The position numbers and the translations under genes were made by a program. This document shows, in pieces, positions 4,006 through 55,457 of a DNA stretch of 64,000 nucleotides (the first letter of the stretch is position 1; the number at the start of each line of letters is the position of its first letter). This DNA is from Couchioplanes azureus (lineage in GTDB: Bacteria > Actinomycetota > Actinomycetes > Mycobacteriales > Micromonosporaceae), in NCBI RefSeq assembly GCF_014648355.1, contig NZ_BMQY01000002.1, positions 124,001 through 188,000 on the forward strand, given 5' to 3'. Under the pieces are notes generated by a model, which made no database searches, was not told the origin of the DNA, and saw nothing but the letters and a program-made list of their open reading frames with translations.

Positions 4006-4862
4006 ACCCCGCCGTCGATGGCGGCGGTGGTCAGCGCCTCGGCGCCCAGCCCCCACTTGTCGAGCACCTTGGCGTACGTGCCGTTGGCGATGATCTCGCG
4101 CAGCGCGAGCTGGACGGCGTGGCGCAGCTCCAGCCGGTCCTTGGCCAGGCCGATGCCCATGGGGCTGGCCTCCAGCTGGACGCCGACCAGCTCGAACGCG
4201 CCCTGGCCCTCCTCGACCTGGGCGGCGGCGCTGGTGTAGCCGTCCACGACGGCGTCCACGGTGCCCTTCTCCAGCATCGGGTAGGCCTCCCCCGAGCCGA
4301 CGGCGCTCACCCGCGGGGCCGGGCGGCCGGCGCCGGTGCACAGCTTGGCCTGGGCCTGGACCAGCTCGTCCTGGGTCGTCTCGGCCTGGAACGCGACCCG
4401 GCGGCCGCAGATGGACTCGAGGCCCTCGATCCCCTTCGGGTTGCCCTGCGCCACCACGACCTGGGAGCCCTCGACGAGGTAGTCGACGTAGGTCAGCTTC
4501 TGCTGCCGTTCGGCGTTGTCGGTCATCCCGGACATGACGGCGTCGGCCTTGTGCTCGGCGACGGTGGGGATGATGTCGTCCCAGGCGACGTTGCGGAAGT
4601 CCAGGCGCAGGTTCATCCGCTCGGTCAGCGCCACGGCGAGGTCGTAGTCGACGCCCTGCGGGTTCTTCTGGTCGTCGTAGAACTCGAACGGCGGGTAGGC
4701 GATCTCCGAGGCCACCACGAGCACGCCGGCCTCGCGGACGTCGGCCGGTACCGCGGCGGCCGCCGTGCTCTGCCCGCTCGGCGCCGCGCCGGAGTAGCTC
4801 GCACCGCCGATGGTGACAGCGGCCGCGACGGCCAGTGCCGTCATGACACGGATCGCGCGCAT
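4002..4862 (-). CDS. family-3 extracellular solute-binding protein (amino-acid type), orphan
   Basis: 286 residues. The ATG has GGGAG six bases upstream. A Sec signal (residues 1-27) has no lipobox Cys, so the protein is probably released or held non-covalently. The mature part has the SBP_bac_3 signature: VASEIAYPPFEF, then GVDYDLAVALTERM, a Thr/Asp-rich middle (VMSGMTDNAERQQKLTYVDY) and the closing DKWGLG. No permease or ATPase gene is adjacent. Instead it is divergent from a chemoreceptor, and both have CTCA-N16-GCCGAT promoters. I infer a role as ligand-presenting protein for chemotaxis; an ordinary transport role with a distant permease is possible. It ends in the CTAG shared with the nitrate-reductase-type gene. 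Confidence 0.88.
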   Translation of the reverse strand: MRAIRVMTALAVAAAVTIGGASYSGAAPSGQSTAAAAVPADVREAGVLVVASEIAYPPFEFYDDQKNPQGVDYDLAVALTERMNLRLDFRNVAWDDIIPTVAEHKADAVMSGMTDNAERQQKLTYVDYLVEGSQVVVAQGNPKGIEGLESICGRRVAFQAETTQDELVQAQAKLCTGAGRPAPRVSAVGSGEAYPMLEKGTVDAVVDGYTSAAAQVEEGQGAFELVGVQLEASPMGIGLAKDRLELRHAVQLALREIIANGTYAKVLDKWGLGAEALTTAAIDGGV

Positions 4863-4902
4863 GAGCTTCTCCCTGGTACGTGAATTGTTTCCGAACCCTC
4901 TG

Positions 4903-4928
4903 ATCGGCCGGCACCCGGGCGAGATGAG
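4903..4928 (-). promoter_or_regulatory. FliA-type (flagellar sigma) promoter of the solute-binding protein gene
   Basis: On the minus strand CTCA (4928-4925) is followed by 16 bases and GCCGAT (4908-4903). The FliA consensus I recall for Actinoplanes missouriensis is CTCA-N15-17-GCCGAA, so this matches 9 of 10 fixed bases. A start near 4893 would give a leader of about 30 bases carrying the ribosome site. Confidence 0.6.
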
Positions 4929-4940
4929 ATTCGGTCACGA

Positions 4941-4966
4941 CTCAGATTCCGCTCAAGTCGGCCGAT
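4941..4966 (+). promoter_or_regulatory. FliA-type (flagellar sigma) promoter of chemoreceptor 1
   Basis: CTCA (4941-4944), 16 bases, then GCCGAT (4961-4966): the same hexamer and spacing as the minus-strand site 13 bases away. A start near 4976 gives a 23-base leader with GAAAGG before the ATG at 4999. Two matched sites in divergent orientation argue against chance. Confidence 0.62.
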
Positions 4967-4998
4967 TCGAAGAACAAGCTGTCTGACGAAAGGTCACC

Positions 4999-6597
4999 AT
5001 GCTCCGCGTTACGCCCCGCCTGACTCTCGGCCGCAAGATCGTCGCCCTGGCGACAGCCGGCCTGGCGCTGGTCCTGGCCGTCGGCGGGATCGGTCTGCTC
5101 GCGGCCGCCCAGCAGCAGCATGCGCAGGACCGCCTGGTGCGCGCCACGGACGCCGTGCGGGCGGACCGGGCCGTCGCCGCCGCCCAGGCGGTGCTGCGGG
5201 GCGACGTGCTGGCGGCCATGGTCGCCCGCACCGCGGAGCAGCGCCGCGCCGCGCTGGACAGCCTCGGCGGCGACGCCGCGACGCTGCGGGACAGCATCGC
5301 GGCCCTGCACGCCGAGAGCGCACCGGCCCCGGTACGGGCCGCCGCCGCCGGCGTGGACGACAAGGTCGAGCAGCTGATCACGCTGAGCCAGCGGGTGGTG
5401 AGCCTGGCCAACCTCGGCGTCACGGACCCCGGCCAGGACCGCGCGCGGGCCGCGCTGCCCGAGTTCCAGAAGTCCTCCGAGGCGCTCGGCGCCGCGCTGG
5501 AGCCGGTCGAGGTGGCCATCACCGCCGAGGCCCGCCAGGCCCGCCTCGACGCCGACGCCGCACAGCGCTCCGCCCGTACGCTCACGATCGCCGGCAGCAT
5601 TGTCGCCGCCGTGCTGCTGCTGGGCTCCGCCATCGTGCTGGCCCGGCACACCAGCCGCCGCCTCAAGGACTGCCTGGCCGTGGCCAACGCCATCGCCGAC
5701 AAGAACCTGACCGTGCAGCCGCACGTCACCGGCTCCGACGAGCTGACCGAGCTGTCGCTGGCGATGGGCCGGGCCACCGAGAACGTCCGCACGGCCATCA
5801 CCGAGCTCGACGAGGCGGCCGCCACCCTGGCCAGCGCCTCCGAGGAGATGCACGCCACGAGCGGCAGCATGACCCAGGGCGCCGAGACGACGGTGGAGCG
5901 CACCTCCGTGCTGTCCACCGCGGCCGAGACGGTGCACGAGGCGGTGAACGGGGCGGCGTCCAGCGTCACCCACATCGGCGACTCGATCGAGGAGATCGCC
6001 GCCCGTACCGTCGAGGCCCGGCGGATCGCCGCCGACGCCGCCGGCGCGGCCGCGACCTCGGGCGACCTCGCGCAGCGCCTCGACACGTCGAGCGCCGCGA
6101 TCGGCGACGTGGTCAAGCTGATCACCTCGATCGCCGAGCAGACCAACCTGCTCGCGCTCAACGCCACCATCGAGGCGGCCCGGGCGGGCGAGTCCGGCAA
6201 GGGCTTCTCCGTCGTCGCCGGTGAGGTCAAGGACCTGGCCCGGGAGACCGCCGCGGCCACCGAGGACATCTCCCGGCAGATCGACGCCATCCAGCGCGAC
6301 TCGCAGGCGATGCGCGACGCCATCGCCGAGGTGGCCCGCATCGTCGGCGACATCAACGGCACCCAGGACGTCATCGGCGAGGCCGTGGAGGCGCAGAGCC
6401 GGGCGACGGCGGAGATCTCGGCCAGCGTGGAGCGGGCCGTGGCCGCCGTCGACGGCATCACGGCCAGCCTGGGCGACGTCGTCCAGGGCGCGTCGCTGAC
6501 CAGCGTCGGCGCCGGCGAGACCCAGAGCGCCGCGGTCGACCTGGCGCGGCTGGCGGTCCAGCTGCGTACGCTCGTCCGCGAGTTCCAGCTGACCTGA
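4999..6597 (+). CDS. methyl-accepting chemotaxis protein (chemoreceptor 1)
   Basis: 532 residues. Transmembrane helix 1 is at about 12-36 and helix 2 at about 196-215, enclosing a roughly 155-residue, mostly helical sensor of four-helix-bundle size. HAMP follows (about 216-270, ending near [15 protein letters not shown]). The signalling hairpin tip [19 protein letters not shown] is at about 379-398. The last residues (LVREFQLT) form no pentapeptide tether for CheR/CheB. It is a membrane receptor signalling through CheW/CheA, which are not in this window. It is divergent from a solute-binding protein under a matching flagellar-type promoter, so that protein is the likely ligand carrier (inference). 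Confidence 0.95.
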
Positions 6598-6610
6598 CGC
6601 CGCCGGCCCG

Positions 6611-7858
6611 CTATTCGCGATCCAGCAGCTTCACCGCACGGGTCTCCAGGTCGTGCGCGGCGTCGACCAGCTCGGCCAGCTCGGCGAACAGGGCGGCCCG
6701 GCCGTCGGCGCCGAGGTCGGCCACCGGCGGCAGGGCGGCGATGCGGTCGTCGAGCTCGCGGACGTCGGCGCCGGCCATCGCGAGCACCATCCGGCGCTCG
6801 CACAGGTCGCCGTACTCGCCCGCGTGGGCCTCCGCCCGTGCCGCGAGCGCCGACCAGTGGGCGCCCGACTCGCGGAACAGCCCGGCCGCGTCCGCCAGTG
6901 CCGGCCGGCCCAGCATGCCGGCCGCCTCGTCCAGGAAGTCCGCGTAGAGCGGGCGGGTGCCGCCGGGCGCGGTGTACGACAGTTCGAGGCACTCGTAGAG
7001 CCGGCGCATCGCCGCGCCGAACGCCTCCGGCGAGCCGAACCGGCGCTGCCAGCCGGACTTCGTGCGGCCGTCGCGGAGCTGGGCGGCGAGCCGCCGCATG
7101 CCGGAGAAGCCGAAGTTGGCGTCGAAGGCGTGCCCGAGGACCGGCCCGGTGAGGTGCGCGACGGTGGTCGCGATCGCGGCGCCGGGATCCGGGCGGCCGG
7201 CGCCGGCGGTCTCCACCACGATCCGGTGGTGCCGGCCCTTCTTGTGCCCGGCCCAGGCCGTCGCGAACTCGTCCATCGGCAGCCGGTGCGGCACGGCGGC
7301 GGAGTCGTCGACGAGCACGGTGTCGCCGTCGATGCCGGCCACCACGACGCCGTACGGCTCCGTCGCGAGCGCCGCCCGGCCGCTGTGCCAGGGCAGCCGC
7401 GAGCGGTCCACGCTGACGTAGACCGCCCTGCCCCGCTCGACGGCGGCGCGCAGCGCGGCCAGGGCGCGCAGCGTCGACGTGCTGTGCTCCTCGGCGAACG
7501 AGAGCGGCAGCCGGCGCAGCGCCGACTCCACCCAGGGATCCGGGTGGTGCTGGGCCACGATCGTCATGATCGGCGGCATGCCGCGGTACTCGAAGACCGC
7601 GTACATGAAGCCGATGCCTCCGGCCAGCCCGCACACCATCGCCTCGGAGCAGGCGACACCCGCCTGCCGCAGCAGGTGCACGGCGAGCGAACTGAGCCGG
7701 TGCTGCCCCGGCCCGAACTCGTCGTACCCGGGGACCAGGCCGCTCGGCAGCGCGGCCGGCTCCGGCCGGACCACATGGCGGCGGGCGGTGGTGTACGACT
7801 CGCCGGTGCGCGCCATGCGCTCGCGGACCAGCTGCTTGAGTCGGCGTCGGTCGGTCAC
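6611..7858 (-). CDS. BtrH N-terminal / DUF4872 domain protein
   Basis: 415 residues from the GTG at 7858, which has CAGGA about seven bases before it. The frame stays open further upstream, but that extension is low-complexity and unconserved. Residues 1-30 carry a basic leader (RLKQLVRERMARTGESYTTA) seen, from memory, at the front of several unrelated actinobacterial proteins. The main part has the papain-like BtrH N-terminal pattern: His in FGPGQHRLSSLA, Cys in AGVACSEAMVCGLAGGIGF, then EYRGMPPIMTI, VYVSVDRSRLPW and VLVDDSA. The rest resembles DUF4872. BtrH itself moves an acyl group from carrier protein to an antibiotic, but most relatives are uncharacterised. No carrier protein or biosynthetic partner is adjacent; chemoreceptor 1 ends 13 bases away on the other strand. 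Confidence 0.75.
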   Translation of the reverse strand: MTDRRRLKQLVRERMARTGESYTTARRHVVRPEPAALPSGLVPGYDEFGPGQHRLSSLAVHLLRQAGVACSEAMVCGLAGGIGFMYAVFEYRGMPPIMTIVAQHHPDPWVESALRRLPLSFAEEHSTSTLRALAALRAAVERGRAVYVSVDRSRLPWHSGRAALATEPYGVVVAGIDGDTVLVDDSAAVPHRLPMDEFATAWAGHKKGRHHRIVVETAGAGRPDPGAAIATTVAHLTGPVLGHAFDANFGFSGMRRLAAQLRDGRTKSGWQRRFGSPEAFGAAMRRLYECLELSYTAPGGTRPLYADFLDEAAGMLGRPALADAAGLFRESGAHWSALAARAEAHAGEYGDLCERRMVLAMAGADVRELDDRIAALPPVADLGADGRAALFAELAELVDAAHDLETRAVKLLDRE

Positions 7859-7974
7859 GTCAGGTCCTGTCCACGGACGGTGGCAGCGGCTCTGCCCCAC
7901 GCCGGCTCGCCGCACCCCGTCCGGCTGATCCGCGGCGGACATGCACGACTCCGACCCGAACTCCGCGATGGCAT

Positions 7975-8018
7975 GGTGACCACCTTCGCCCCCCGCATCG
8001 CCGGCGTGCGTGGTCACC
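7975..8018. repeat. inverted repeat GGTGACCAC / GTGGTCACC
   Basis: Perfect 9-bp arms at 7975-7983 and 8010-8018, 26 bases apart, in the leader region about 117-160 bases upstream of the BtrH-like gene. It could be an operator or a hairpin; nothing else defines it. Confidence 0.35.
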
Positions 8019-8024
8019 GGTCAG

Positions 8025-8065
8025 GGGGTACGGCGCGCGGACCGCGCCGAGCGCGACCGTACCCC
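8025..8065 (-). terminator. hairpin terminator after the dehydrogenase-ridA-tfoX operon
   Basis: GGGGTACGG (8025-8033) pairs perfectly with CCGTACCCC (8057-8065), with an inner CGCGC/GCGCG stem in the loop. It begins 20 bases past the tfoX-like stop. There is no U-tract, as is usual in high-GC actinomycetes. Confidence 0.6.
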
Positions 8066-8085
8066 TCGCACCCGACCGGCGGCAA

Positions 8086-8418
8086 TCACTTCGCCGGTAG
8101 CGAGCGGGCGTAGCCGATGCCCCGGGCCACCCACGACGTGAGCTCCCGGTCGGTGGCCAGCGCGGCCGTGTCGATGCGCAGCCAGCCGTCCATCGCCCGC
8201 CCGCGCATCTCGAACCGGCTGGCCCCGGGCCGCGCGACGAGGGCCGGCGTCTCGGCCGGGTCGACCCGCAGCAGCAGGCCGCCCTGGCCACTCGCGCTCA
8301 CCGCCATGTTGCCGTTGACGAGGAACGCCAGCCCACCGAACATCCGTTTCTCGCTCAGTCCCGGCTCGGCCTGCACGATCTCCCGGATGCGGTCGGCAAG
8401 GTCCTCGTCGTAAGCCAC
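8086..8418 (-). CDS. TfoX/Sxy N-terminal domain protein
   Basis: 110 residues, GTG start. It is a single TfoX-N domain: N-terminal helix (DEDLADRIREIVQ), then the family hallmark KRMFGGLAFLVNGNMAV and a C-terminal RELTSWVARGIGYARSL. In gamma-proteobacteria Sxy promotes competence through CRP; actinobacterial stand-alone versions have no known function. It is the third gene after the dehydrogenase and ridA-like genes, 18 bases after the latter, and the last before a hairpin, so it is probably co-transcribed. Confidence 0.85.
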   Translation of the reverse strand: MAYDEDLADRIREIVQAEPGLSEKRMFGGLAFLVNGNMAVSASGQGGLLLRVDPAETPALVARPGASRFEMRGRAMDGWLRIDTAALATDRELTSWVARGIGYARSLPAK

Positions 8419-8436
8419 GCCGACAGTGTGCCACCG

Positions 8437-8853
8437 CTAGCCCCCGTGCCCGGGTACGGCCGCGGTGACCTCCACCTCGAGCACGGCGCCGGGCAGGAAG
8501 AGCCGGCTCACCTCGACCGTCGTGCTGGCCGGCGGCACGGCCGGGAAGAGCGGCCGGCGGACGGCGGCGTAGGCGGGGAGGTCGGCGAGGTCGGTCAGGA
8601 AGGTACGGATGTGCAGCACGGTGCCGAAGCCGGCGCCGTGCGCGGCGAGGATCCCGCCGATGATCTCGAAGATCCGCCGGGCCTGCGCGCCCGCGTCGCC
8701 CGGGGCGACCACCGCGCCCTGGTCGTCGACGGCGACCTGGCCGGACAGCGTCAGCAGCGCCCCGCCGCCGGGGAAGTCCAGGCGGGCTACGTGCGCGAAG
8801 CGGTCGCCGAACGGGGCGGCGACGGTCGGCGGGTTGTCCAGGGTCAGCTTCAT
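8437..8853 (-). CDS. RidA/YjgF-YER057c-UK114 family protein lacking the catalytic arginine
   Basis: 138 residues; its ATG overlaps the upstream dehydrogenase stop as ATGA. The fold markers are there: LTLSGQVAVDDQGAVV, then RRIFEIIGGILAAHGAGFGTVLHIRTFLTD split over the usual helix and strand, and LEVEVTAA at the end. RidA enzymes that hydrolyse enamine/imine intermediates have an Arg in a PARS/T motif. Here the motif reads PPASTTVEVSRL, with Ser in its place, while the later Glu is kept. It therefore probably belongs to a Rid branch without imine deaminase activity. Pairing with an NAD(P)-dependent hydroxyacid-type dehydrogenase suggests handling of a reactive product (inference). Confidence 0.85.
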   Translation of the reverse strand: MKLTLDNPPTVAAPFGDRFAHVARLDFPGGGALLTLSGQVAVDDQGAVVAPGDAGAQARRIFEIIGGILAAHGAGFGTVLHIRTFLTDLADLPAYAAVRRPLFPAVPPASTTVEVSRLFLPGAVLEVEVTAAVPGHGG

Positions 8854-9632
8854 CGGCACTCCAGGCGGGTCAGGGCCGAGACGTCGGCCCGCGGATCGGG
8901 GTGGCCCTCGAGCAGGCCGAGGACGGCCCGGGCCACCGGGGTCGTCGTGCGGTCGCCGACGGCCAGCCGCAGATCCTTGGCGGCCAGCGCGATCGCGAAG
9001 GAGGCCGTCGTGGAGGTCGCCCGGGCGACCACGCCCTGCAGGGGCCCCGCGGCGAGGAGGTCGAGCGGTGCGCGCACGCCGAGCGCCCCGGCGACGACGA
9101 GCGCGTCCCGCAGCCCGCCGAGGGCCGTCAGCTGAGCGGTGTTGAGCACGAGTTTCGCCGCACTGCCGGCGCCGACCGGTCCGCACTCCCGGACGGTGCC
9201 GAGGTCGTCGAGCAGCTCGGGAGCGCCGCCGCCGGCCAGGATGGTGAGCCGTCCGGCCGCCGCGGCGTCGACGCTGCCGGCCACGGGAGCATCCACGAAC
9301 GCGACCCCGGCGGGGACGCGGGCGGCGATCTCGCGGATCTGGTCGGGCGTGACGGTCGACATCTGGATCACCGTCGTGCCGGGCCGCAGCGCGACCCCGT
9401 CCGCGAACAGGGCGTCCCGCACGGCCGCGGCGTCCGTCAGCATCGTGATCACCACCTCGGCGGATGCCACCGCGGCCGCCGGCGTGGGCGCGATCGAGGC
9501 GCCCCGAGCGGCCAGCGGCGCGGCCCTGGTCGGGGTGCGGTTCCACACGGTCACCCGGTGGCCGGCGGCGAGCAGACGCCGGGCGATCGCCGCGCCCATC
9601 AGTCCGGTGCCGAGCAGTGCAACGTTGATCAT
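8850..9632 (-). CDS. NAD(P)-dependent beta-hydroxyacid dehydrogenase (HIBADH / imine-reductase superfamily)
   Basis: 260 residues from the ATG at 9632. A GTG two codons upstream is possible but sits one base from a TAGCGT -10-like element; from the ATG the gap is seven bases, which suggests a leaderless transcript. The Rossmann motif is VALLGTGLMGAAIARRL (GxGxxG near residue 10), with WNRTP after strand 2 favouring NADP. The substrate-binding stretch is FVDAPVAGSV and the superfamily lysine lies in GSAAKLVLNTAQL. It is the first gene of a three-gene operon with ridA-like and tfoX-like genes, facing a LysR gene with a 9-bp inverted repeat between them. The substrate is not evident; 3-hydroxyisobutyrate is only one candidate. 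Confidence 0.85.
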   Translation of the reverse strand: MINVALLGTGLMGAAIARRLLAAGHRVTVWNRTPTRAAPLAARGASIAPTPAAAVASAEVVITMLTDAAAVRDALFADGVALRPGTTVIQMSTVTPDQIREIAARVPAGVAFVDAPVAGSVDAAAAGRLTILAGGGAPELLDDLGTVRECGPVGAGSAAKLVLNTAQLTALGGLRDALVVAGALGVRAPLDLLAAGPLQGVVARATSTTASFAIALAAKDLRLAVGDRTTTPVARAVLGLLEGHPDPRADVSALTRLECR

Positions 9633-9680
9633 GCGCACGACGCTAGGGGCTCGGGAGCCATGTCACCAGCGAATCTCTGG

Positions 9681-9715
9681 CATGCCTGACATGCCCGTCT
9701 AGCATATCAGGCATG
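9681..9715. promoter_or_regulatory. 9-bp inverted repeat between dehydrogenase operon and lysR; probable LysR site
   Basis: CATGCCTGA (9681-9689) and TCAGGCATG (9707-9715) are perfect arms 17 bases apart. The right arm contains the lysR ATG (9713) and the spacer holds TAGCAT (9700-9705), a TANNNT -10 seven bases before that ATG. Binding would repress lysR and could act on the divergent operon 50 bases away. Confidence 0.55.
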
Positions 9716-10630
9716 GACACCCATCTGCTCGACGTCTTCCGGACGGTGGCGCACCTCGGGTCGATCACCACCGCGGCGCGGCGCCTCGGCTTCACCCAGT
9801 CGGCCGTCTCCCGGCAGATCGGCGCGCTCGAGGCCGAGGTCGGGGGCAAGGTGTTCGACCGGCTGCCGCGCGGGGTCGCGCTGACCGAGACCGGGCGGGC
9901 GCTGCTTCCGTACGCGGAGGAGATCCTCGACCGGCTCGCGGCGGCCCGTCGCGCCGTCGACGACCTCCGCCGCCTCGACGCCGGCCGGCTGCGGGTGGGC
10001 GCCTTCCCGACCGCGGTCGCCGCCCTGGTGCCCCGGGCGCTGGCCGCGTTCCGCGCCGCGTACCCCTCGGTCGGCCTGTCCCTGCTCGAAGGCCTGACCC
10101 CCGCCCTGCTCGACCGCCTCGCCGCGGGCGAGGCCGACGTCGCCGTGGTGAGCACCGCGCCGTCCGCGCCGATCGACCCCGCGCGGTTCACGCTGCACCA
10201 CCTGGTCGACGAGCGGCTCCTCGTCGCCGTGGCGCGCGGGCACCGGCTGGCGGACCGGACGACGGTACGCCTGGCCGACCTGGCCGCGGACCCCTTCGTC
10301 GTCGGCTCGGCCACCGCGGAACAGGGCCTGCTCCGAGCCGGTCTGCCCCACGGCTTCCGGCCGAAGATCGACCTGGTCGCCGCCGACTGGACCGGCAAGC
10401 TCGGCTGCGTGGCCGCGGGCCTCGGCGTGGCATTGGTGCCGGCTCTCGCGGCGCGCAGCGCCCCACCCGACGTCGCCCTGCTCCACCTGCACGCCGACGA
10501 CGAGTCCGTACGCCGGATCCACGCCGCCACGCCGGCCGGGCGCACCAGCCCCGCTGCCGTGACCCACTTCCTGGCCGAGCTCAGGAAGGAGGCGCGGCAG
10601 TTCGCCGGCGCGCCCCTCCGGGGCGACTAG
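9713..10630 (+). CDS. LysR-family transcriptional regulator
   Basis: 305 residues. The N-terminal HTH covers about 1-60: MDTHLLDVFRTVAHLGSITT, then FTQSAVSRQIGALEAEVG and VFDRLPRGVALTETG. The effector domain (about 90-295) is of periplasmic-binding-protein type with LRVGAFPTAVAALVP at its start. There is no Shine-Dalgarno sequence, and TAGCAT lies seven bases before the ATG, so the mRNA is probably leaderless. It is divergent from the dehydrogenase-ridA-tfoX operon, the usual placement for a LysR target. Its stop shares the palindrome CTAG with the convergent membrane-protein gene. Confidence 0.93.
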   Translation: MDTHLLDVFRTVAHLGSITTAARRLGFTQSAVSRQIGALEAEVGGKVFDRLPRGVALTETGRALLPYAEEILDRLAAARRAVDDLRRLDAGRLRVGAFPTAVAALVPRALAAFRAAYPSVGLSLLEGLTPALLDRLAAGEADVAVVSTAPSAPIDPARFTLHHLVDERLLVAVARGHRLADRTTVRLADLAADPFVVGSATAEQGLLRAGLPHGFRPKIDLVAADWTGKLGCVAAGLGVALVPALAARSAPPDVALLHLHADDESVRRIHAATPAGRTSPAAVTHFLAELRKEARQFAGAPLRGD

Positions 10631-48466: not shown

Positions 48467-48562
48467 GCAACTTGCCATTGTCCGGGACCTGATTCTTCGA
48501 TTTCTCCGGCGCGCCACCCGGGGTTGAGTGACCGCATCTGGCGGGACTCCCCGGGGGGCGCA

Positions 48563-51472
48563 ATGGACGCGAGACGGTGGTCGCGGAGCGCGGTGAGCCT
48601 GATCATGTGCGCTTGCACCGGCGCGGTGGTGGTCGCCACCCACCACGATGGACAGGCCGCGGCGGCGCGCGATCCGCACGCCGCGCACATCATGCCGCGG
48701 ATGGTGCCGGTCGCGGTCGCCGCGCCCGCGCCGCTGCCGCGTGCCGGGTGGACGGTCACCGCGGACAGCTCGCCGAGCGGGACGGGCGCCGGTAACGCGA
48801 TCGACGGCGATCCGGCGACGACCTGGCGTACGGCGGCGACCGCGCTCCCGCACACCCTCACCATCGACACCGGCAACGTGGTGGCGGTCGGCGGCCTGAC
48901 CTACCTGCCGCCGTCCGACTCGGCGAACGGCCGGATCGGCCGCTACCGGATCTCGGTCAGCGCCGACGGCACCGCGTACACCGACGTGGCGAGCGGGACG
49001 TTCGCCGACGACGAGGCGGTCGAGTCCGCGGCCTTCGCGACCGTGCTGACGCGGTTCGTGCGCCTCACCGCGCTCAGCGAGGCGGGCGGCCGGGGCTCGT
49101 GGTCGGCGGCGGCGGAGATCCACCTGCTCGGTGGCACCGATCCGGCGCTGGCGCGTACCGGATGGTCGGTGTCGGCGGACAGCCAGGAGACCGCGGCCGA
49201 GAACGGGGCGGCCGCCAACGTGCTCGACGGCGACACGGCGACGATCTGGCACACGGCGTGGAGCACCGCGCCGGTCCCGCCGCTACCGCACTGGATCACC
49301 GTGGACACCAAGGCGTCCCACCTGGTCTCCGGGCTGAGCTACCTGCCCCGGCAGGGCGGGAGCCGCAACGGCACCATCGGCCAGTACCGGGTGCAGACCA
49401 GCACGGACGGGGCGACGTGGGGCGCCGCGGCGGCGACCGGCCGCTTCGCCGACACCGGCACCGCGCAGACCGTCACCTTCGCGCCGCGGATCGCGCGCTA
49501 CGTCCGCCTCACCGCGCTGACCGAGGCGGGCAGCCGCGGGCCGTGGACCAGTGCCGCCGAGATCAACCTGCTCGGGCGGGCCGACCCCACCCTGGCCCGC
49601 ACCGGCTGGACGGTGACCGCCTCCGACCAGGAGACCGCCCGGGAGAACGGCGCGGCGGTCAACGTCCTGGACGGCAACGCCGCCACGATCTGGCACTCGG
49701 CCTGGAGCGGCGCCGCGCCCGTACCGTTGCCGCACTCGCTGACCGTCGACCTGAAGGCCGCCGTACGCGTGGGTGGTCTCACCTATCTGCCGCGGCCGGC
49801 CCCGTCGGCGAACGGCCGGATCGGCCGCTACAAGATCGAGACCAGCGCCGACGGTACGGCGTGGAGCGCCCGGGTGACCGGCGGCGCCTTCGCGGACGAC
49901 CCCGCACTCCAGACCGTGGTGTTCCCGCCGGCGACCGCGCGGTACGTGCGGCTGACGGCCGAGTCCGAGGCGGGCAACCGCGGACCCTGGAGCAGCGCCG
50001 CCGAGCTCGCCCTGCTGGGACCGAGCGGATCGGTGCCGGCGGCGGGCGGCAGGTGGAGCACGCCGGTCGGCTTCCCGCTCGTGCCCGTGGCGGCCGCCCA
50101 GCTGCCCGACGGCAAGCTTCTCACCTGGTCGGCGTACGCGCCGGATGCTTTCGTGGGCGGCCGCGGGCGCACCGTGACCGCCACCTACGACCCGGCGACC
50201 GGCGTGGTGACCCCGCGGACCGTCACCGAGACCGGCCACGACATGTTCTGTCCCGGGATCTCGGTGCTGCCGGACGGGCGCATCGTGGTCACCGGCGGCA
50301 ACGACAGTGCCAAGACGAGCATCTACGACCCGGGCGACGACGCGTGGACGACCGGCCCGGCGATGACCACCGCCCGGGGTTACCAGTCGAGCACCACGCT
50401 CTCCGACGGCCGCGTCTTCACCATCGGCGGGTCCTGGAGCGGCGGGATCGGCGGCACCGGCGGCACCCCGCACAAGGCCGGCGAGGTGTACTCGACGACG
50501 ACCGGCTGGACCGCCCTGCCGGACGCCCGGGTGGAACCGATGCTGACCGCGGACGCCAACCCGAACGGCGACTACCGCAAGGACAACCACGCCTGGTTGT
50601 TCGCGTGGAGCGGCGGCACGGTGCTGCAGGCCGGGCCGAGCCGGGCGATGAACTGGTACTCGACGGCGGGCACCGGAGGCACCACACCGGCCGGCAACCG
50701 GGCCGACGACGGGGACGCCATGAACGGCAACGCGGTGATGTACGACGCCGGCAAGATCCTCACGGTCGGCGGCGCGACGTCGTACGAGAACGTCGACGCC
50801 AGCACGAGCGCGTACACGTTGAGCATCTCCGGTACCACGGTGACCGCCCGCCGGACGGGCTCGATGGCGCACGCGCGCTCGTTCGCCAACAGCGTCGTCC
50901 TGCCGGACGGCAAGGTGGTGGTCCTCGGCGGGCAGAACTTCCCGGTGCCGTTCTCGGACAACACCGCGGTGCTCGGCGCCGAGATGTGGGACCCGGCCAC
51001 CGGGTCGTTCACCACCCTGGCCCCGGCGGCGGTACCGCGGACGTACCACAGCGTGGCGATCCTGATGCCGGACGCGCGGGTGTTCACCGGCGGCGGCGGG
51101 CTCTGCGGCAGCTGCGCCACCAACCACTTCGACGGCGAGATCTTCACCCCGCCGAACCTGCTGAATCCCGACGGCACCGCGGCGCCGCGGCCGGTCGTCA
51201 CGGCGGCCCCGCCCACGGCCGGCAACGGCGCGTCGATCACGGTGGCGACCGACCGGGCGGTGTCCTCGTTCGCCCTCGTCCGGATGGGTACGGCGACGCA
51301 CAGCGTGAACACGGACCAGCGCCGCATCGCCCTGACGCCGGCGGCGGTGACGGGCGGCTACCGGCTCACCGTCCCGGCCGACCGGGGTGTCGCGCTGCCC
51401 GGCTACTGGATGCTCTTCGCCATGGACGCGCGCGGCGTCCCCAGCGTCGCGAGGACCATCCGCATCGGATGA
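48563..51472 (+). CDS. secreted galactose oxidase (fungal type) with three CBM32 modules
   Basis: 969 residues from the ATG at 48563 (GGGGGG six bases upstream). An N-terminal hydrophobic segment (about 8-28) is the export signal. Three F5/8C/CBM32 modules begin near 59, 196 and 342, each with a GWxVxAxS start, an AIDGD/VLDGD/VLDGN motif and ARYVRLTAxSEAG-type end. The 7-blade Kelch domain and C-terminal Ig-like domain (about 492-969) match fungal galactose oxidase closely: Cys563 (HDMFCPGIS) and Tyr607 (ARGYQSS) for the thioether cofactor, Trp625 (GGSWSGG), copper ligands Tyr828-His829 (RTYHSV) and His913 (GTATHSVNTDQRR). Spacings Cys-Tyr 44 and Tyr-Trp 18 equal C228-Y272-W290. Predicted: oxidation of primary alcohols of galactosides with H2O2 release. 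Confidence 0.93.
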   Translation: MDARRWSRSAVSLIMCACTGAVVVATHHDGQAAAARDPHAAHIMPRMVPVAVAAPAPLPRAGWTVTADSSPSGTGAGNAIDGDPATTWRTAATALPHTLTIDTGNVVAVGGLTYLPPSDSANGRIGRYRISVSADGTAYTDVASGTFADDEAVESAAFATVLTRFVRLTALSEAGGRGSWSAAAEIHLLGGTDPALARTGWSVSADSQETAAENGAAANVLDGDTATIWHTAWSTAPVPPLPHWITVDTKASHLVSGLSYLPRQGGSRNGTIGQYRVQTSTDGATWGAAAATGRFADTGTAQTVTFAPRIARYVRLTALTEAGSRGPWTSAAEINLLGRADPTLARTGWTVTASDQETARENGAAVNVLDGNAATIWHSAWSGAAPVPLPHSLTVDLKAAVRVGGLTYLPRPAPSANGRIGRYKIETSADGTAWSARVTGGAFADDPALQTVVFPPATARYVRLTAESEAGNRGPWSSAAELALLGPSGSVPAAGGRWSTPVGFPLVPVAAAQLPDGKLLTWSAYAPDAFVGGRGRTVTATYDPATGVVTPRTVTETGHDMFCPGISVLPDGRIVVTGGNDSAKTSIYDPGDDAWTTGPAMTTARGYQSSTTLSDGRVFTIGGSWSGGIGGTGGTPHKAGEVYSTTTGWTALPDARVEPMLTADANPNGDYRKDNHAWLFAWSGGTVLQAGPSRAMNWYSTAGTGGTTPAGNRADDGDAMNGNAVMYDAGKILTVGGATSYENVDASTSAYTLSISGTTVTARRTGSMAHARSFANSVVLPDGKVVVLGGQNFPVPFSDNTAVLGAEMWDPATGSFTTLAPAAVPRTYHSVAILMPDARVFTGGGGLCGSCATNHFDGEIFTPPNLLNPDGTAAPRPVVTAAPPTAGNGASITVATDRAVSSFALVRMGTATHSVNTDQRRIALTPAAVTGGYRLTVPADRGVALPGYWMLFAMDARGVPSVARTIRIG

Positions 51473-51490: not shown

Positions 51491-51528
51491 TTGACGGGCA
51501 TGCCCGCGTCTGACACTGTGGGCCAGTG
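51491..51528 (+). promoter_or_regulatory. promoter and dyad operator of the FadR-type regulator gene
   Basis: TTGACG (51491-51496), 17 bases, CACTGT (51514-51519) with an extended TG at 51511-51512; the GTG start follows six bases later, so the message is probably leaderless. CACTG-N5-CAGTG (51514-51528) covers the -10 and the start, a likely autoregulatory site. Confidence 0.6.
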
Positions 51529-52290
51529 GCTGATCCACTGATCCACTCTCCCGTCGCCCGCAGCTCCCTCGTCGACGAACTGGTCGAGCGGCTGCGTGCC
51601 GACGTGCTCGCCGAGCGGTACGCCCCGGGCACCCTGCTGCCACCCGAGCGGGAACTGGCCGCGGGCTACGGGGTGACCCGTACGTCGCTCAAGCACGCGC
51701 TGGTCCGCCTCGTGGAGGCGGGCCTGCTGGAGACCCGGCACGGGATCGGCACCCGGGTGCGCGACTTCCGCCGCACCGCGGGCCCGGACCTGCTGCCGTT
51801 CCTGGTCTCGCTGGACGGGCCGAGCTGGCTGGCGGAGGTGTTCGCCGTGCGCCGCGAGATCGGCGCGCTGATCGCGGCCCGGGCCGCCCGGCACGCCGGC
51901 GAGGCGGACCGGGAGCGGCTGCTCCGGCTCCGCGACGAGATCGCCGCCGCGCCGGCTCCCGGGCCGGCTCAGCGGGCCGAGGCCGAGGTCCACCGCGCCC
52001 TGGCCGTCGCCTCCGGCAACCGGGTGTACGAGCTGCTCGTCAACTCGCTGCTGCGGGCCTACGACGACGTACGGGAGCTCTTCGCCGCCCCGTTCGCCGA
52101 CGCCGGCGCGGCCGCCCGGCGGATCACCCCGCTGGTCGAGGCGGTCCACTCCGGGGACCCGGCGGCGGCGTACCCCGCCGCCGACGCTTACTACCTCTCC
52201 ACCGAACGACTCATGCTGGGAGGCGACGGTGTTCACGACGATGCGAGAAGTGATGACGGGGACGGTGCGGCTGCGCGGGGAGACCGCTGA
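51526..52290 (+). CDS. FadR-subfamily GntR transcriptional regulator (FCD domain)
   Basis: 254 residues, GTG start. N-terminal winged helix (about 12-80): SSLVDELVERLRADVLAERY, PPERELAAGYGVTRTSLKHA, LVRLVEAGLLETRHGIGTRV. C-terminal helical FCD domain with FAVRREIGALIAARAARHAG and EAEVHRALAVASGN, where the metal or ligand site usually lies; one late His is seen in LVEAVHSGD. Its last 62 bases overlap the next gene, so the three genes from here form one unit. By genome position it should respond to the lipid or alcohol substrate of the downstream oxidase. Confidence 0.92.
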   Translation: MADPLIHSPVARSSLVDELVERLRADVLAERYAPGTLLPPERELAAGYGVTRTSLKHALVRLVEAGLLETRHGIGTRVRDFRRTAGPDLLPFLVSLDGPSWLAEVFAVRREIGALIAARAARHAGEADRERLLRLRDEIAAAPAPGPAQRAEAEVHRALAVASGNRVYELLVNSLLRAYDDVRELFAAPFADAGAAARRITPLVEAVHSGDPAAAYPAADAYYLSTERLMLGGDGVHDDARSDDGDGAAARGDR

Positions 52291-53641
52291 GCGGCCCCTC
52301 CGGCTGACCTTGCGGTTCACCGCGCCGGGCGCATTGCATCCCCTTGCCGACCTGAAGGCCGAGGCGACCGGCCGGGTCCAGGTGACCGGGTTCGCCGACG
52401 ATCCCGCGGCGGCCGGCACCATGGAGATCGCGCCGCTGCGGGGCGGCCGGATCGGTTACCGGCTCGCCTTCACCGCGCGCGACGGGCGGCGGCTGTGGCT
52501 CGACGGCGCCAAGGCGGTGACCGTACGCCGCCCGCTGGCCAGCATGACCCGGCTCGATGCCCGGCTGCTGGACGCCGGGGGGACCGTGGTGGGCCAGGCC
52601 CGGCTGGTGTTCGACCTGCGCCGCGAGCTCCTGCCGTTCCTGGCCAGCATGCGGCTGCGCCGGGAGCGCCGGCCCTGGCCGGCGGCGGCGGACGCCGTCG
52701 CGCCGGACCGGCTGCTGCCCTCGCGGTGGCGGGGGCAGCCCGGGCGGCTGGAGGTCTGGTACGCCACCGTCACCGACCCGGAGACCGGCACCGGCATCTG
52801 GCTGCACCACGAGCTGGTGGCCCCGGCCGACGGCTCCCCCGCCCGGGCGCACGGCTGGGCCGCAGTCTTCCCGCGCGACGCGGCGCCGGTCTGGCACCGC
52901 TACGGCCCGGCCCCCTGGCCCGCCGAGCGCCCGGCCGACGGGTACGACGCCGCCGGGATCACGGCCACCGCGCGCGAGCTGACCGGCGCGGCCGGCGACC
53001 TGAGCTGGCAGTTGCGGGTGACCGCCGCCGGCGCGCCGCTGTTCACCTTCCCCCGCTGGGCCTGGCACCGCGAGCTGCTGCCGGCCGCCCAGATCCTCCC
53101 GGTGCCGACCGGCCGGTTCACCGGGACGGTCCGGATCGCCGATCGCGAGCTGACCCTCACCGACGCGCCGGGCAACATCGCCCGCATCTACGGCCACGGC
53201 AACGCCCGCCGGTGGGCCTGGCTGCACGCCGATCTCGGCGACGGCGACGTGTGCGAGGTGGTGGCGGCGGTCTCCACCCGGCCCGGCCTCAACCGGCTGC
53301 CCGCCCTGCCGCTCGTCCGGCTGCGCGCCGGCGGCATCGACTTCCCGGCCGGCGACCCGCTGCTGGCGGCGCTGCGCTTCCGCGCCCGCCTGAGCCGGCC
53401 ATGGTGGACGGTGACCGGGCGCAGCGGTGATCGGAGGATCTCCGTGACCGTGTCCATGCCGCCCGGACGCACCATCGCCGTGCCGTACACCGACCCGGAC
53501 GGGGCCCCGGCGGTCTGCCACAACTGCGAGGTGGCCGACGCCCTGATCCTGCTGGAGCGGCGCCACCGCGACGGCTGGCGCGAGGAGCGGCGCTGGCAGC
53601 TGACCGGCACCGCGCACGCGGAGGTGGGCGAGCGTGACTGA
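52229..53641 (+). CDS. lipocalin-like (CrtC/AttH-type) protein of unknown function, partner of a GMC oxidase
   Basis: 470 residues; the GTG has GGGAGG five bases upstream. No signal peptide. Residues 1-130 (GTVRLRGETAERPLRLTLRF, then GTMEIAPLRGGRIGYRLAFT and GARLVFDL-like QARLVFDLRR) resemble a domain that in actinobacteria is attached to cholesterol-oxidase-type GMC proteins and lipases, from memory. Residues 180-465 look like a double lipocalin: LEVWYATVTDPETGTGIWLH, GNIARIYGHGNARRWAWLHA and late VCHNCEVADALILLE. CrtC/AttH-like proteins bind or hydrate lipophilic molecules. The next gene starts inside this one, implying joint function. Confidence 0.7.
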   Translation: MFTTMREVMTGTVRLRGETAERPLRLTLRFTAPGALHPLADLKAEATGRVQVTGFADDPAAAGTMEIAPLRGGRIGYRLAFTARDGRRLWLDGAKAVTVRRPLASMTRLDARLLDAGGTVVGQARLVFDLRRELLPFLASMRLRRERRPWPAAADAVAPDRLLPSRWRGQPGRLEVWYATVTDPETGTGIWLHHELVAPADGSPARAHGWAAVFPRDAAPVWHRYGPAPWPAERPADGYDAAGITATARELTGAAGDLSWQLRVTAAGAPLFTFPRWAWHRELLPAAQILPVPTGRFTGTVRIADRELTLTDAPGNIARIYGHGNARRWAWLHADLGDGDVCEVVAAVSTRPGLNRLPALPLVRLRAGGIDFPAGDPLLAALRFRARLSRPWWTVTGRSGDRRISVTVSMPPGRTIAVPYTDPDGAPAVCHNCEVADALILLERRHRDGWREERRWQLTGTAHAEVGERD

Positions 53642-55457
53642 TCGCCTGGGAGCCCTCGCCGCCACCGTGCTCGGCACCGACGCCCGCGAGGGCCGCCGGA
53701 TCGCGACCGAGCTGGCCCGGCTGGCGGTCGCCTTCCCCCGGCCGGTACGGCTCGGGCTCGGCGCCGCCGGCGGCGGCCTGGACCTGGCCGCCCGGCTGCT
53801 GAGCGGCGGGTCGCTCGCCCGGCTCGACCCGCAGACCCGGGAGGCGGTCTGCATCGCCCTCGCCGCCCGGCCCGGCGGCCGGGCGCTGCTCGACGCGGTG
53901 AAGATGCCCCTGCTGCTGGCCGCCGCGGCGGCCGGCGGGCCGGGCGGCACGGCCGCGGACCCGGTACCGGCGACGGCCGCCCCGCCCGCGCCCGAGCCGG
54001 AGCTGACCTGTGTCGCCGCCGGCGACTGGCCGCGGCGCAGCCGCGCCGACGCGGTCGTGATCGGCTCCGGCGCCGGCGGCGCGATGGCCGCCCGGGAGCT
54101 GGCCCGGGCGGGACTGTCGGTGGTGGTGCTGGAGGAGGGCCGGCGGTTCACCGCGGCGGAGTTCCGCGACCGGCCGGCCGCCGACCGCTTCGTGGACCTG
54201 TACCGCGACGGCGGGGCGACGTTCGCGCTCGGCAACCCGCCGGTGCTGCTGCCCCAGGGGCGCGGCGTCGGCGGCACCACGCTCGTGAACTCCGGCACCT
54301 GTTACCGCACGCCCGAGCGGGTCCTGCGGCGCTGGCGCGACGTGCACGGGCTCGCCCTGGCCGACCCGGCGCGGTTCGCGCCCCTGCTGGACGAGGTGGA
54401 GCGCACCCTGCGCGTGGCACCCCAGCCACTGGACGGGCTGGGCCGTAACGGCGAGCTGGTGCTCGCCGGCGCGGCGGCGCTGGGCTGGAAGGCCGCGCCG
54501 ATGCGCCGCAACGCTCCCGGCTGCGCCGGCTCCTGCCAGTGCGTCGTCGGCTGCCCGCGTAACGCCAAGAACGGCGTCCACCTCAACGCGCTGCCGCAGG
54601 CCTGCGCCGCGGGCGCGGTCGTGGTGACCGGGGCCAGGGTGGAGCGGATCGTCACGTCCCGTGGCCGCGCCGTCGGCGTGCGCTTCGGTGGCCGGCTGAT
54701 CGCCGCGCCGCTCGTGGTGGCGGCGGCCGGGGCGGTGGAGACGCCCCGGCTGCTGGCCAGGTCCGGGCTGGGCGGGCATCCCGGGACGGGCCGCGGGCTC
54801 GCCGTGCACCCGGCGGTCAGCCTGGCCGGGCGCTTCGGCGAGCCCGTGACGGCCTGGCGAGGCGTCCTGCAGAGCGTCGGCGTCGAGCAACTGCACGACG
54901 ACGGCGTCCTCATCGAGGCGACCGCCGGCCCGCCGGGCCTGGTGTCGTTCGTCCCGCCCGGCATCGGCCGGGAGCTGCACGCCGAGCTCGCCGCCGCGGA
55001 CCGGCTGGCCACCGTGGGAGCGATGATCGCCGACCAGCCGAGCGGCCGGGTCGGCGCCCGCATGGTGCGCTACCGGCTCGCCGGCACCGACGGGGACCGG
55101 TTGCGGCTGGCCATCGTGGCCATCGGGGAGCTGCTGTTCGCCGCCGGCGCCGAGGCCGTCCTCACCGGGCTCGGCCACCGGCCGTACGCGCACAGCGTCG
55201 GCGAGCTGCGCGACGCGGTCGCCACGGCCGACACCCGGCAGCTGCACCTGGCGGCGTTCCACCCGACCGGCAGCGCGCGGATGGGCGCCGATCCCCAGCG
55301 GGCGCCGGTGGACCCGCAGGGCCGGCTGCGCGGTGTCCGGGGCGTCTGGGTGGCCGACGCCGCCGCGCTGCCCGGCTGCCCGGAGGTCAACCCGCAGCTG
55401 AGCATCATGGCACTCGCCCTGGCCGTCGGCCGCAACGCCGCCGCCGGACCGGGTTGA
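53634..55457 (+). CDS. GMC-family FAD oxidoreductase (long-chain alcohol / sterol oxidase type)
   Basis: 607 residues; its GTG lies eight bases inside the preceding gene. A helical N-terminal region (1-100; GREGRRIATELARLA-like) is shared with plant and yeast long-chain fatty alcohol oxidases. FAD motif DAVVIGSGAGGAMAARELA (GxGxxG near 143) with Glu of EEGRRF after strand 2. VGGTTLVNSGTCYRTP is the GMC loop, the Cys-rich CAGSCQCVVGCPRNAKNGV is typical of the FAO branch, and the active-site His/Asn lie in AAFHPTGSARMGADP and CPEVNPQLSIMAL. Oxidises a lipophilic alcohol with O2 or another acceptor; the substrate is open. Confidence 0.9.
   Translation: MTDRLGALAATVLGTDAREGRRIATELARLAVAFPRPVRLGLGAAGGGLDLAARLLSGGSLARLDPQTREAVCIALAARPGGRALLDAVKMPLLLAAAAAGGPGGTAADPVPATAAPPAPEPELTCVAAGDWPRRSRADAVVIGSGAGGAMAARELARAGLSVVVLEEGRRFTAAEFRDRPAADRFVDLYRDGGATFALGNPPVLLPQGRGVGGTTLVNSGTCYRTPERVLRRWRDVHGLALADPARFAPLLDEVERTLRVAPQPLDGLGRNGELVLAGAAALGWKAAPMRRNAPGCAGSCQCVVGCPRNAKNGVHLNALPQACAAGAVVVTGARVERIVTSRGRAVGVRFGGRLIAAPLVVAAAGAVETPRLLARSGLGGHPGTGRGLAVHPAVSLAGRFGEPVTAWRGVLQSVGVEQLHDDGVLIEATAGPPGLVSFVPPGIGRELHAELAAADRLATVGAMIADQPSGRVGARMVRYRLAGTDGDRLRLAIVAIGELLFAAGAEAVLTGLGHRPYAHSVGELRDAVATADTRQLHLAAFHPTGSARMGADPQRAPVDPQGRLRGVRGVWVADAAALPGCPEVNPQLSIMALALAVGRNAAAGPG

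Follow-up and report, generated by a model that had tools for sequence, protein, structure and literature searches.

The question raised by the locus at positions 48563–51472 of the window (the whole 64,000-nt stretch of Couchioplanes azureus DNA that was analyzed) is whether a soil actinobacterium with a 7.6-Mb genome encodes a galactose oxidase of the fungal kind and, if so, how such an enzyme would be held on its substrate, provided with copper and related to its fungal counterparts. The open reading frame starts with ATG and ends on a stop codon, and no stop interrupts the frame between this ATG and a TTG further upstream, at 48524. The GC content of the gene is 74.2%, as compared to 74.8% for the window, and its GC3 is 96%. 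The large open reading frames on the opposite strand and in other frames were dismissed as artefacts of this GC3, and a lowered GC content, considered as a sign of transfer, was not seen. A Pfam search with the 969-aa protein returned three F5_F8_type_C stretches, Kelch_6 and GO-like_E_set (Table 1). The AlphaFold2 model, built from 34 sequences, had a pLDDT of 83.4 and a pTM of 0.59, with residues 1–55 below 50. Judging from its known relatives and from the N-terminus, which was read by eye, the protein would be exported.

Table 1. Features of the galactose oxidase-type gene and its product (window coordinates; FgrGalOx numbering in brackets)
Feature	Position	Strand	Basis
Galactose oxidase-type copper radical oxidase gene, 969 aa	48563..51472	+	Frame, Pfam, PDB matches
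N-terminal basic and hydrophobic stretch, residues 1–36; putative signal peptide or membrane anchor	48563..48670	+	Sequence, by eye; pLDDT <50
His/Met-rich segment DPHAAHIMPRM, residues 37–47	48671..48703	+	Sequence, HxxH counts
CBM32 module 1, residues 57–190, galactose contacts lost	48731..49132	+	Pfam, contact-residue comparison
CBM32 module 2, residues 195–338, galactose contacts kept	49145..49576	+	Contact-residue comparison
CBM32 module 3, residues 344–487, galactose contacts kept	49592..50023	+	Contact-residue comparison
Kelch beta-propeller catalytic domain, residues 491–875	50033..51187	+	Pfam, PDB, model
Cys563, predicted thioether partner (C228)	50249..50251	+	Alignment
Tyr607, predicted radical Tyr of the Tyr–Cys cofactor (Y272)	50381..50383	+	Alignment
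Trp625, stacking Trp, fungal position (W290)	50435..50437	+	Alignment
Arg672, predicted main galactose ligand (R330)	50576..50578	+	Alignment; role from the available text of PMC6519835
Tyr828–His829, predicted copper ligands (Y495, H496)	51044..51049	+	Alignment
C-terminal E-set domain, residues 876–968	51188..51466	+	Pfam
His913, predicted copper ligand (H581)	51299..51301	+	Alignment

The PDB search showed that the window protein scored highest with the bacterial enzyme 9g43/9g8h (741 bits), then with FgrGalOx, 1gof (615 bits, E 2.7e-183), far more than chance would give and in agreement with the initial annotation of the gene as a fungal-type galactose oxidase. Lower scores were obtained for 6ryx (432 bits) and 5c86 (409), which we take to be CgrAAO and CgrAlcOx, consistent with the titles of the PDB entries, and for GlxA (95). 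In the alignment to FgrGalOx, residues C228, Y272, W290, Y495, H496 and H581 corresponded to C563, Y607, W625, Y828, H829 and H913, so that all six cofactor residues listed in the initial annotation were recovered, and the spacing, there called the same, proved nearly exact (44, 18, 203, 1 and 84 residues versus 44, 18, 205, 1 and 85 in FgrGalOx). The Cys–Tyr thioether pair and the Tyr/His/His copper ligands of AA5_2 are thus present by residue, the crosslink itself being predicted. The Cys, both Tyr, both His and Trp290 were invariant in all 85 GalOx-type rows of the alignment, and the Arg330 equivalent was found in 80 of the 85.

The second-shell aromatic residue at position 290 is a Trp in the window protein, as in the fungal enzyme, while GlxA has Asp there. 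The galactose ligand Arg330 and Tyr329 are conserved as R672 and Y671, and the Phe194–Trp290 pair as F530 and W625; in the accessible part of PMC6519835 both pairs are tied to carbohydrate oxidase function. The residues Gln326 and Gln406 of FgrGalOx were not matched, the window protein having Asn668 and Glu742, but this was not treated as family-defining, because both positions vary among active AA5_2 enzymes, as far as the available sources describe them. Glu is also found at position 406 in the raffinose/galactose oxidase PruAA5_2A. The model matched 9g43 with a Z-score of 64.4 and an rmsd of 16.4 over 615 residues, which is explained by a different placement of the two domains, 5c86 with Z 61.0 (rmsd 1.3 over 463), and GlxA 4unm with Z 44.2 (rmsd 2.4 over 447). 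These comparisons support the assignment of the window protein to the fungal, AA5_2-like type rather than the GlxA type, and a comparison of catalytic domains also grouped it with AA5_2 and apart from GlxA (615 bits to 1gof versus 95, with both fungal AA5_2 rows sister to the Micromonosporaceae clade in the tree described below).

The window protein is very probably an exported AA5_2-like copper radical oxidase, and most likely a galactose 6-oxidase. Since the residue pairs of carbohydrate oxidases are kept and Glu742 is as in PruAA5_2A, galactose/raffinose 6-oxidase activity is predicted, with chemistry and substrate extrapolated from known relatives. Cys563 and Tyr607 would form the thioether cofactor, copper would be bound by Tyr607, Tyr828, His829 and His913, and the C6 alcohol of galactose residues would be oxidized to the aldehyde with production of H2O2. 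A rather unlikely alternative is that the protein is an AA5_2 enzyme for general or aryl alcohols, of the kind of CgrAAO or FgrAAO, and only resembles galactose oxidase. Oxidase activities on galactose and on general alcohols are spread across AA5_2 clades and are not monophyletic (PMC11267884, in the part available), which confounds the prediction of activity from sequence, and positions 326 and 406 are unlike those of FgrGalOx. However, Trp625, Tyr671 and Arg672 are kept, where CgrAAO has Trp at position 329 and Thr at 406, predicted galactose-binding modules are attached to the protein, and the structure of its bacterial relative has also been solved in complex with galactose, as 9G8H. It is highly improbable that the protein is a GlxA-type glyoxal oxidase of cell-wall morphogenesis: GlxA is likewise a kelch copper radical oxidase from an actinomycete, and the window protein scores 146.7 bits on the GlxA model NF052501, but this is far under the cut-off of 800 bits, the residue in the W290 column is Trp and not the Asp of GlxA, and Pfam did not report the GlxA barrel domain PF21110, while two other genes of the same genome have the GlxA Pfam domain. 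These lie on contigs G000:C2 (∼6.2–8 kb; L006) and G000:C5 (∼208.5–210.3 kb; L005), and in L006 some 450 residues precede the first GlxA match.

Bacterial galactose oxidases are already known, which tempers the practical interest claimed earlier for the window protein as a bacterial enzyme. The galactose oxidase of Pseudarthrobacter siccitolerans (9G43, and 9G8H in complex with galactose), for which no paper was found in the open-access literature, is 58–59% identical to the window protein and shares with it a CBM32 joined to an AA5 catalytic domain, all cofactor residues and the equivalents of R330 and W290. Its solved chain contains one CBM32, with numbering that starts at 143, so that more may lie upstream, while three modules and a leader are present in the window protein. 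FgrGalOx (1GOF, AA5_2) has in common with the window protein the cofactor, the stacking Trp, the Arg330 ligand and an N-terminal CBM32, but the latter is single, and Gln is found at positions 326 and 406 instead of Asn and Glu. According to the available text of PMC6519835, PruAA5_2A of Penicillium rubens, which prefers raffinose over galactose, shares Glu at 406, Arg330, Tyr329 and an N-terminal CBM32, and differs in being fungal, in Asp at 326 and in its single CBM32. GlxA of Streptomyces lividans (4UNM) likewise belongs to the kelch copper radical oxidases and comes from an actinomycete; it differs in a Trp coming from another position of the chain, an extra beta-barrel domain and low identity (PMC13094651, accessible part). 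The reference list of PMC11267884, as far as available, includes a Burkholderia AA5 alcohol oxidase.

The three tandem CBM32 modules noted in the initial annotation are present, as seen from the three Pfam stretches of F5/8C fold and a match with Z ∼26 to the CBM32 of Micromonospora viridifaciens sialidase (MvCBM32), which is 41% identical to module 2 over 145–147 residues. The galactose contacts were judged against MvCBM32, where, besides the published contacts, we take His539 and Glu522, placed by alignment, to be further ones. The published contacts are Arg572, Glu578 and Trp542 (PMC10167667, in the portion available). Modules 2 and 3 have in common with MvCBM32 the galactose contacts His539, Arg572 and Trp542, reading H, R and W in both, while module 1 reads R, P and a gap. 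Glu578 is replaced by Gly in all three modules, and MvCBM32 further differs in being attached to a sialidase. In the Actinoplanes clade, His539, Arg572 and an aromatic residue at 542 were found in 34 of 34 modules 2 and 3, while His539 was lost from module 1 in 16 of 17 proteins, the exception being Virgisporangium. The absence of galactose contacts from module 1 leads to a prediction of two working modules. Hence, the earlier view of three modules for tight binding reads better as two intact modules and one degenerate: modules 2 and 3 would keep the enzyme on galactose-ended glycans, and module 1 probably serves as a spacer now or binds a different ligand.

Exactly three N-terminal modules were found in the window protein and at all 16 Actinoplanes-clade loci compared, and one to four in the other actinobacterial relatives that have them. 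The Pseudomonadota relatives compared had no N-terminal CBM32, and five of them have modules after the catalytic domain. In three Burkholderiaceae and Acidimicrobiales relatives (L038, L042 and L067) an N-terminal ricin-type lectin takes the place of the CBM32. In a module tree, which left out modules shorter than 118 residues, modules 1 and 3 of the window protein clustered with the same-numbered modules of sister species. The Fusarium CBM32 took no clear place in a CBM32 phylogeny, for which the columns were too few and in which the CBM32 of the sialidase also fell among the modules, and for this reason the module tree was not used in the question of transfer.

Between the hydrophobic start of the window protein and module 1 lies the segment DPHAAHIMPRM. 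Histidines were counted over a stretch of 40 residues that ends at the first module, with L034 omitted for its 24-residue leader. At least two His were found in 38 of 39 proteins with an N-terminal CBM32 (mean 3.26) and HxxH in 30 of them, as compared to a mean of 0.38 and no HxxH in 45 GalOx-type proteins without this module, 0.21 and none in 14 lectin-type AA5 proteins, and 0.52 and none in 73 control open reading frames from these loci that likewise have a hydrophobic stretch at the N-terminus and were chosen by rule and not by annotation. The core D-[PEQ]-H-[AS]-x-H-[IVL]-[MLI] occurs at 15 of 16 Actinoplanes-clade loci, and in the three copies from Streptomyces plasmids HH and then Met occur at the same place. 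Two Frankiales rows, one of them incomplete, had no His in the visible segment. An ATCUN site (mature N-terminus X-X-His) was also considered, since several relatives have A-x-A followed by D-E-H, but it was dropped: in the window protein the His is preceded by Pro, with which the classic site is incompatible.

The genes around these proteins differed in another respect. Of the 45 GalOx-type proteins that lack an N-terminal CBM32, 31 had a SCO1/SenC match in the fetched flank, 30 of them in Burkholderiales, as compared to none of the 40 with this module, as judged with an HMM trained on proteobacterial Sco proteins, which could miss a far relative. L119, one of the kin of these proteins, was checked with Pfam, and six of the set show CxxxC. 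This is consistent with the co-occurrence of Gox genes with sco in certain Burkholderia, described in the available text of PMC4736821, which also reports that GlxA maturation requires Sco under low copper and calls the supply of metal to GlxA outside the cell without chaperones unknown. By Pfam PF02630, no Sco match was found in the genome of the window or in any of the 12 other Micromonosporaceae genomes with the gene, while among another eight actinobacterial genomes that carry the gene four had a match, two of them clear. Since Sco absence is common in Actinomycetota (a match in 44 of 149), the contrast between leader and Sco is confounded with ancestry. The genome of the window also carries one PCuAC gene, the product of which is another possible copper donor.

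These data suggest, less firmly than in the case of the enzyme assignment, that the leader could be a built-in copper-capture segment: the His/Met-rich stretch would collect copper near the membrane and help load the apo-enzyme, replacing the Sco chaperone whose gene neighbors those of the Burkholderiales relatives. The joint proposal, that the actinobacterial leader does in cis what the neighboring Sco does in trans for the Burkholderiales enzymes and that fungal galactose oxidases derive from this lineage, is tentative, and we regard it as possible but rather doubtful. The chances are even that the leader does no more than aid solubility or act as a linker, or that it binds zinc, nickel or the cell wall. 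Its sequence varies outside Actinoplanes, its region is of low confidence in the model (pLDDT <50), and its distribution splits with phylogeny along one deep branch, so that leader and Sco may mark ancestry and not function. On the other hand, such a role does not explain the lack of HxxH in the 73 control open reading frames or the retention of at least two His in 38 of 39 proteins despite large sequence change. As the leader can be removed or mutated in one soluble enzyme, it makes the copper supply outside the cell testable. No report of a His-rich leader was found in the accessible open-access literature, outside which most subscription journals lie.

The relation to fungi was analyzed in a tree of 76 catalytic domains, which was rooted on five lectin-type AA5 proteins, included two fungal sequences, FgrGalOx and CgrAAO, and omitted redundant Burkholderiaceae, several near-duplicate Micromonosporaceae, most lectin-type rows and GlxA. 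FgrGalOx and CgrAAO formed a pair (97/92), sister to a clade of 17 Micromonosporaceae rows (95/87), and both were nested in a nearly all actinobacterial clade of 46 rows (99/99), with Acidimicrobiales, Pseudomonadota and Nitrospira on deeper branches. The highest catalytic-domain identity of FgrGalOx in this set, 56%, was to L086, the nearest relative of the window protein. In AU tests, for which the groups were named after the tree was seen, an arrangement with the 69 bacterial rows together and the fungi outside was rejected (p-AU 0.016), also with FgrGalOx alone (p-AU 0.042), but not with twelve outgroup rows and well-filled columns only (p-AU 0.283). An arrangement with the fungi just outside the actinobacterial clade, the 44 bacterial rows of which then stay together, also passed the test (p-AU 0.161). 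A starred set did not include CgrAAO on its own. Among the bacteria compared, an N-terminal CBM32 was found only in the actinobacterial clade, and it is common to FgrGalOx and PruAA5_2A (the latter from the available description), which fits a descent of the fungal genes from this clade.

The transfer between fungi and actinomycetes raised in the initial annotation is therefore plausible, with the best trees favoring the direction from bacteria to fungus, but with the rival rooting rejected in only two of three tests. The reverse, that Actinoplanes acquired the gene from fungi, seems unlikely. It is compatible with the third test, with a grouping of the Actinoplanes clade and FgrGalOx without CgrAAO, which was not rejected (p-AU 0.259), and with a sample of just two fungal sequences, but it is at odds with the nesting of the fungi in the full tree, the two rejections, the restriction of the N-terminal CBM32 to the actinobacterial clade, and a GC content of the gene near that of the window. 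The opposite direction was argued for glxA, a different branch, in the accessible text of PMC3543389. No report of a bacterial origin of fungal galactose oxidase was found in the same open-access literature, as far as it is accessible. If the direction from bacteria to fungus is true, the fungal enzyme of the textbooks descends from a bacterial one, and glycan labeling and biocatalysis could draw on a wide range of galactose oxidases among the many bacterial copies, of which some are on plasmids.

The bacterial sample, which comprised 79 distinct loci from the best 80 of 130 stretches, is biased, having been found with patterns of the window protein. Among these best 80, the nearest named carriers were Amorphoplanes, Actinoplanes and Jidongwangia. 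A strong match (E ≤1e-199) was found in 13 of 200 Micromonosporaceae genomes, including that of the window, which was also the only one of 396 Actinomycetota genomes to pass 1e-60. Nine PLSDB plasmid records had a match, and three of these are from Streptomyces. The relatives are patchily distributed over actinobacteria, Burkholderiales and plasmids, and the contrast drawn earlier with the GlxA types usual in Streptomyces holds for the type of the window enzyme, but Streptomyces plasmids also carry GalOx-type copies.

Downstream of the gene, on the same strand (51526–55457), lie genes for a GntR/FadR regulator, a protein without Pfam match and a GMC oxidoreductase. The regulator gene and the gene after it recur in L086, adjoining the galactose oxidase gene, and another flanking gene of the window, for a methyltransferase, recurs in L017. 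Across the whole Actinoplanes clade no neighbor recurred, apart from frame-shadow open reading frames and genes of a few near relatives, and for this reason no operon partner is claimed.

Several other AA5 proteins were encountered. Fourteen rows among L099–L114, mostly from Actinoplanes relatives, form a second, ∼35% identical AA5 group. In 12 of the 14, Pro occupies the Trp290 position, and the scanned member, L102, has a C-terminal ricin-type lectin. An IMG/VR viral contig (L115, 5001–5915) encodes a 38% identical stretch of AA5-like domain. At six loci (L076, L077, L080, L081 of Sphaerotilus natans with 1801 aa, L082, and L119 of plasmid CP099607.1, locus 4812–10025) a GalOx-type domain is fused to CBM32s and a PKD domain, in most with a second beta-propeller, and to a match to di-haem cytochrome c peroxidase/MauG and a cytochrome c-like domain, with two CXXCH each; it is likely that these fusions pair a maker and a user of H2O2 in one protein. 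L060 also has two CXXCH. A small cytochrome c-like protein with one CXXCH is encoded near galactose oxidase and Sco genes at L119 (10018–11119) and in the flanks of 24 Pseudomonadota loci, which suggests a cluster of sco, galactose oxidase and cytochrome genes.
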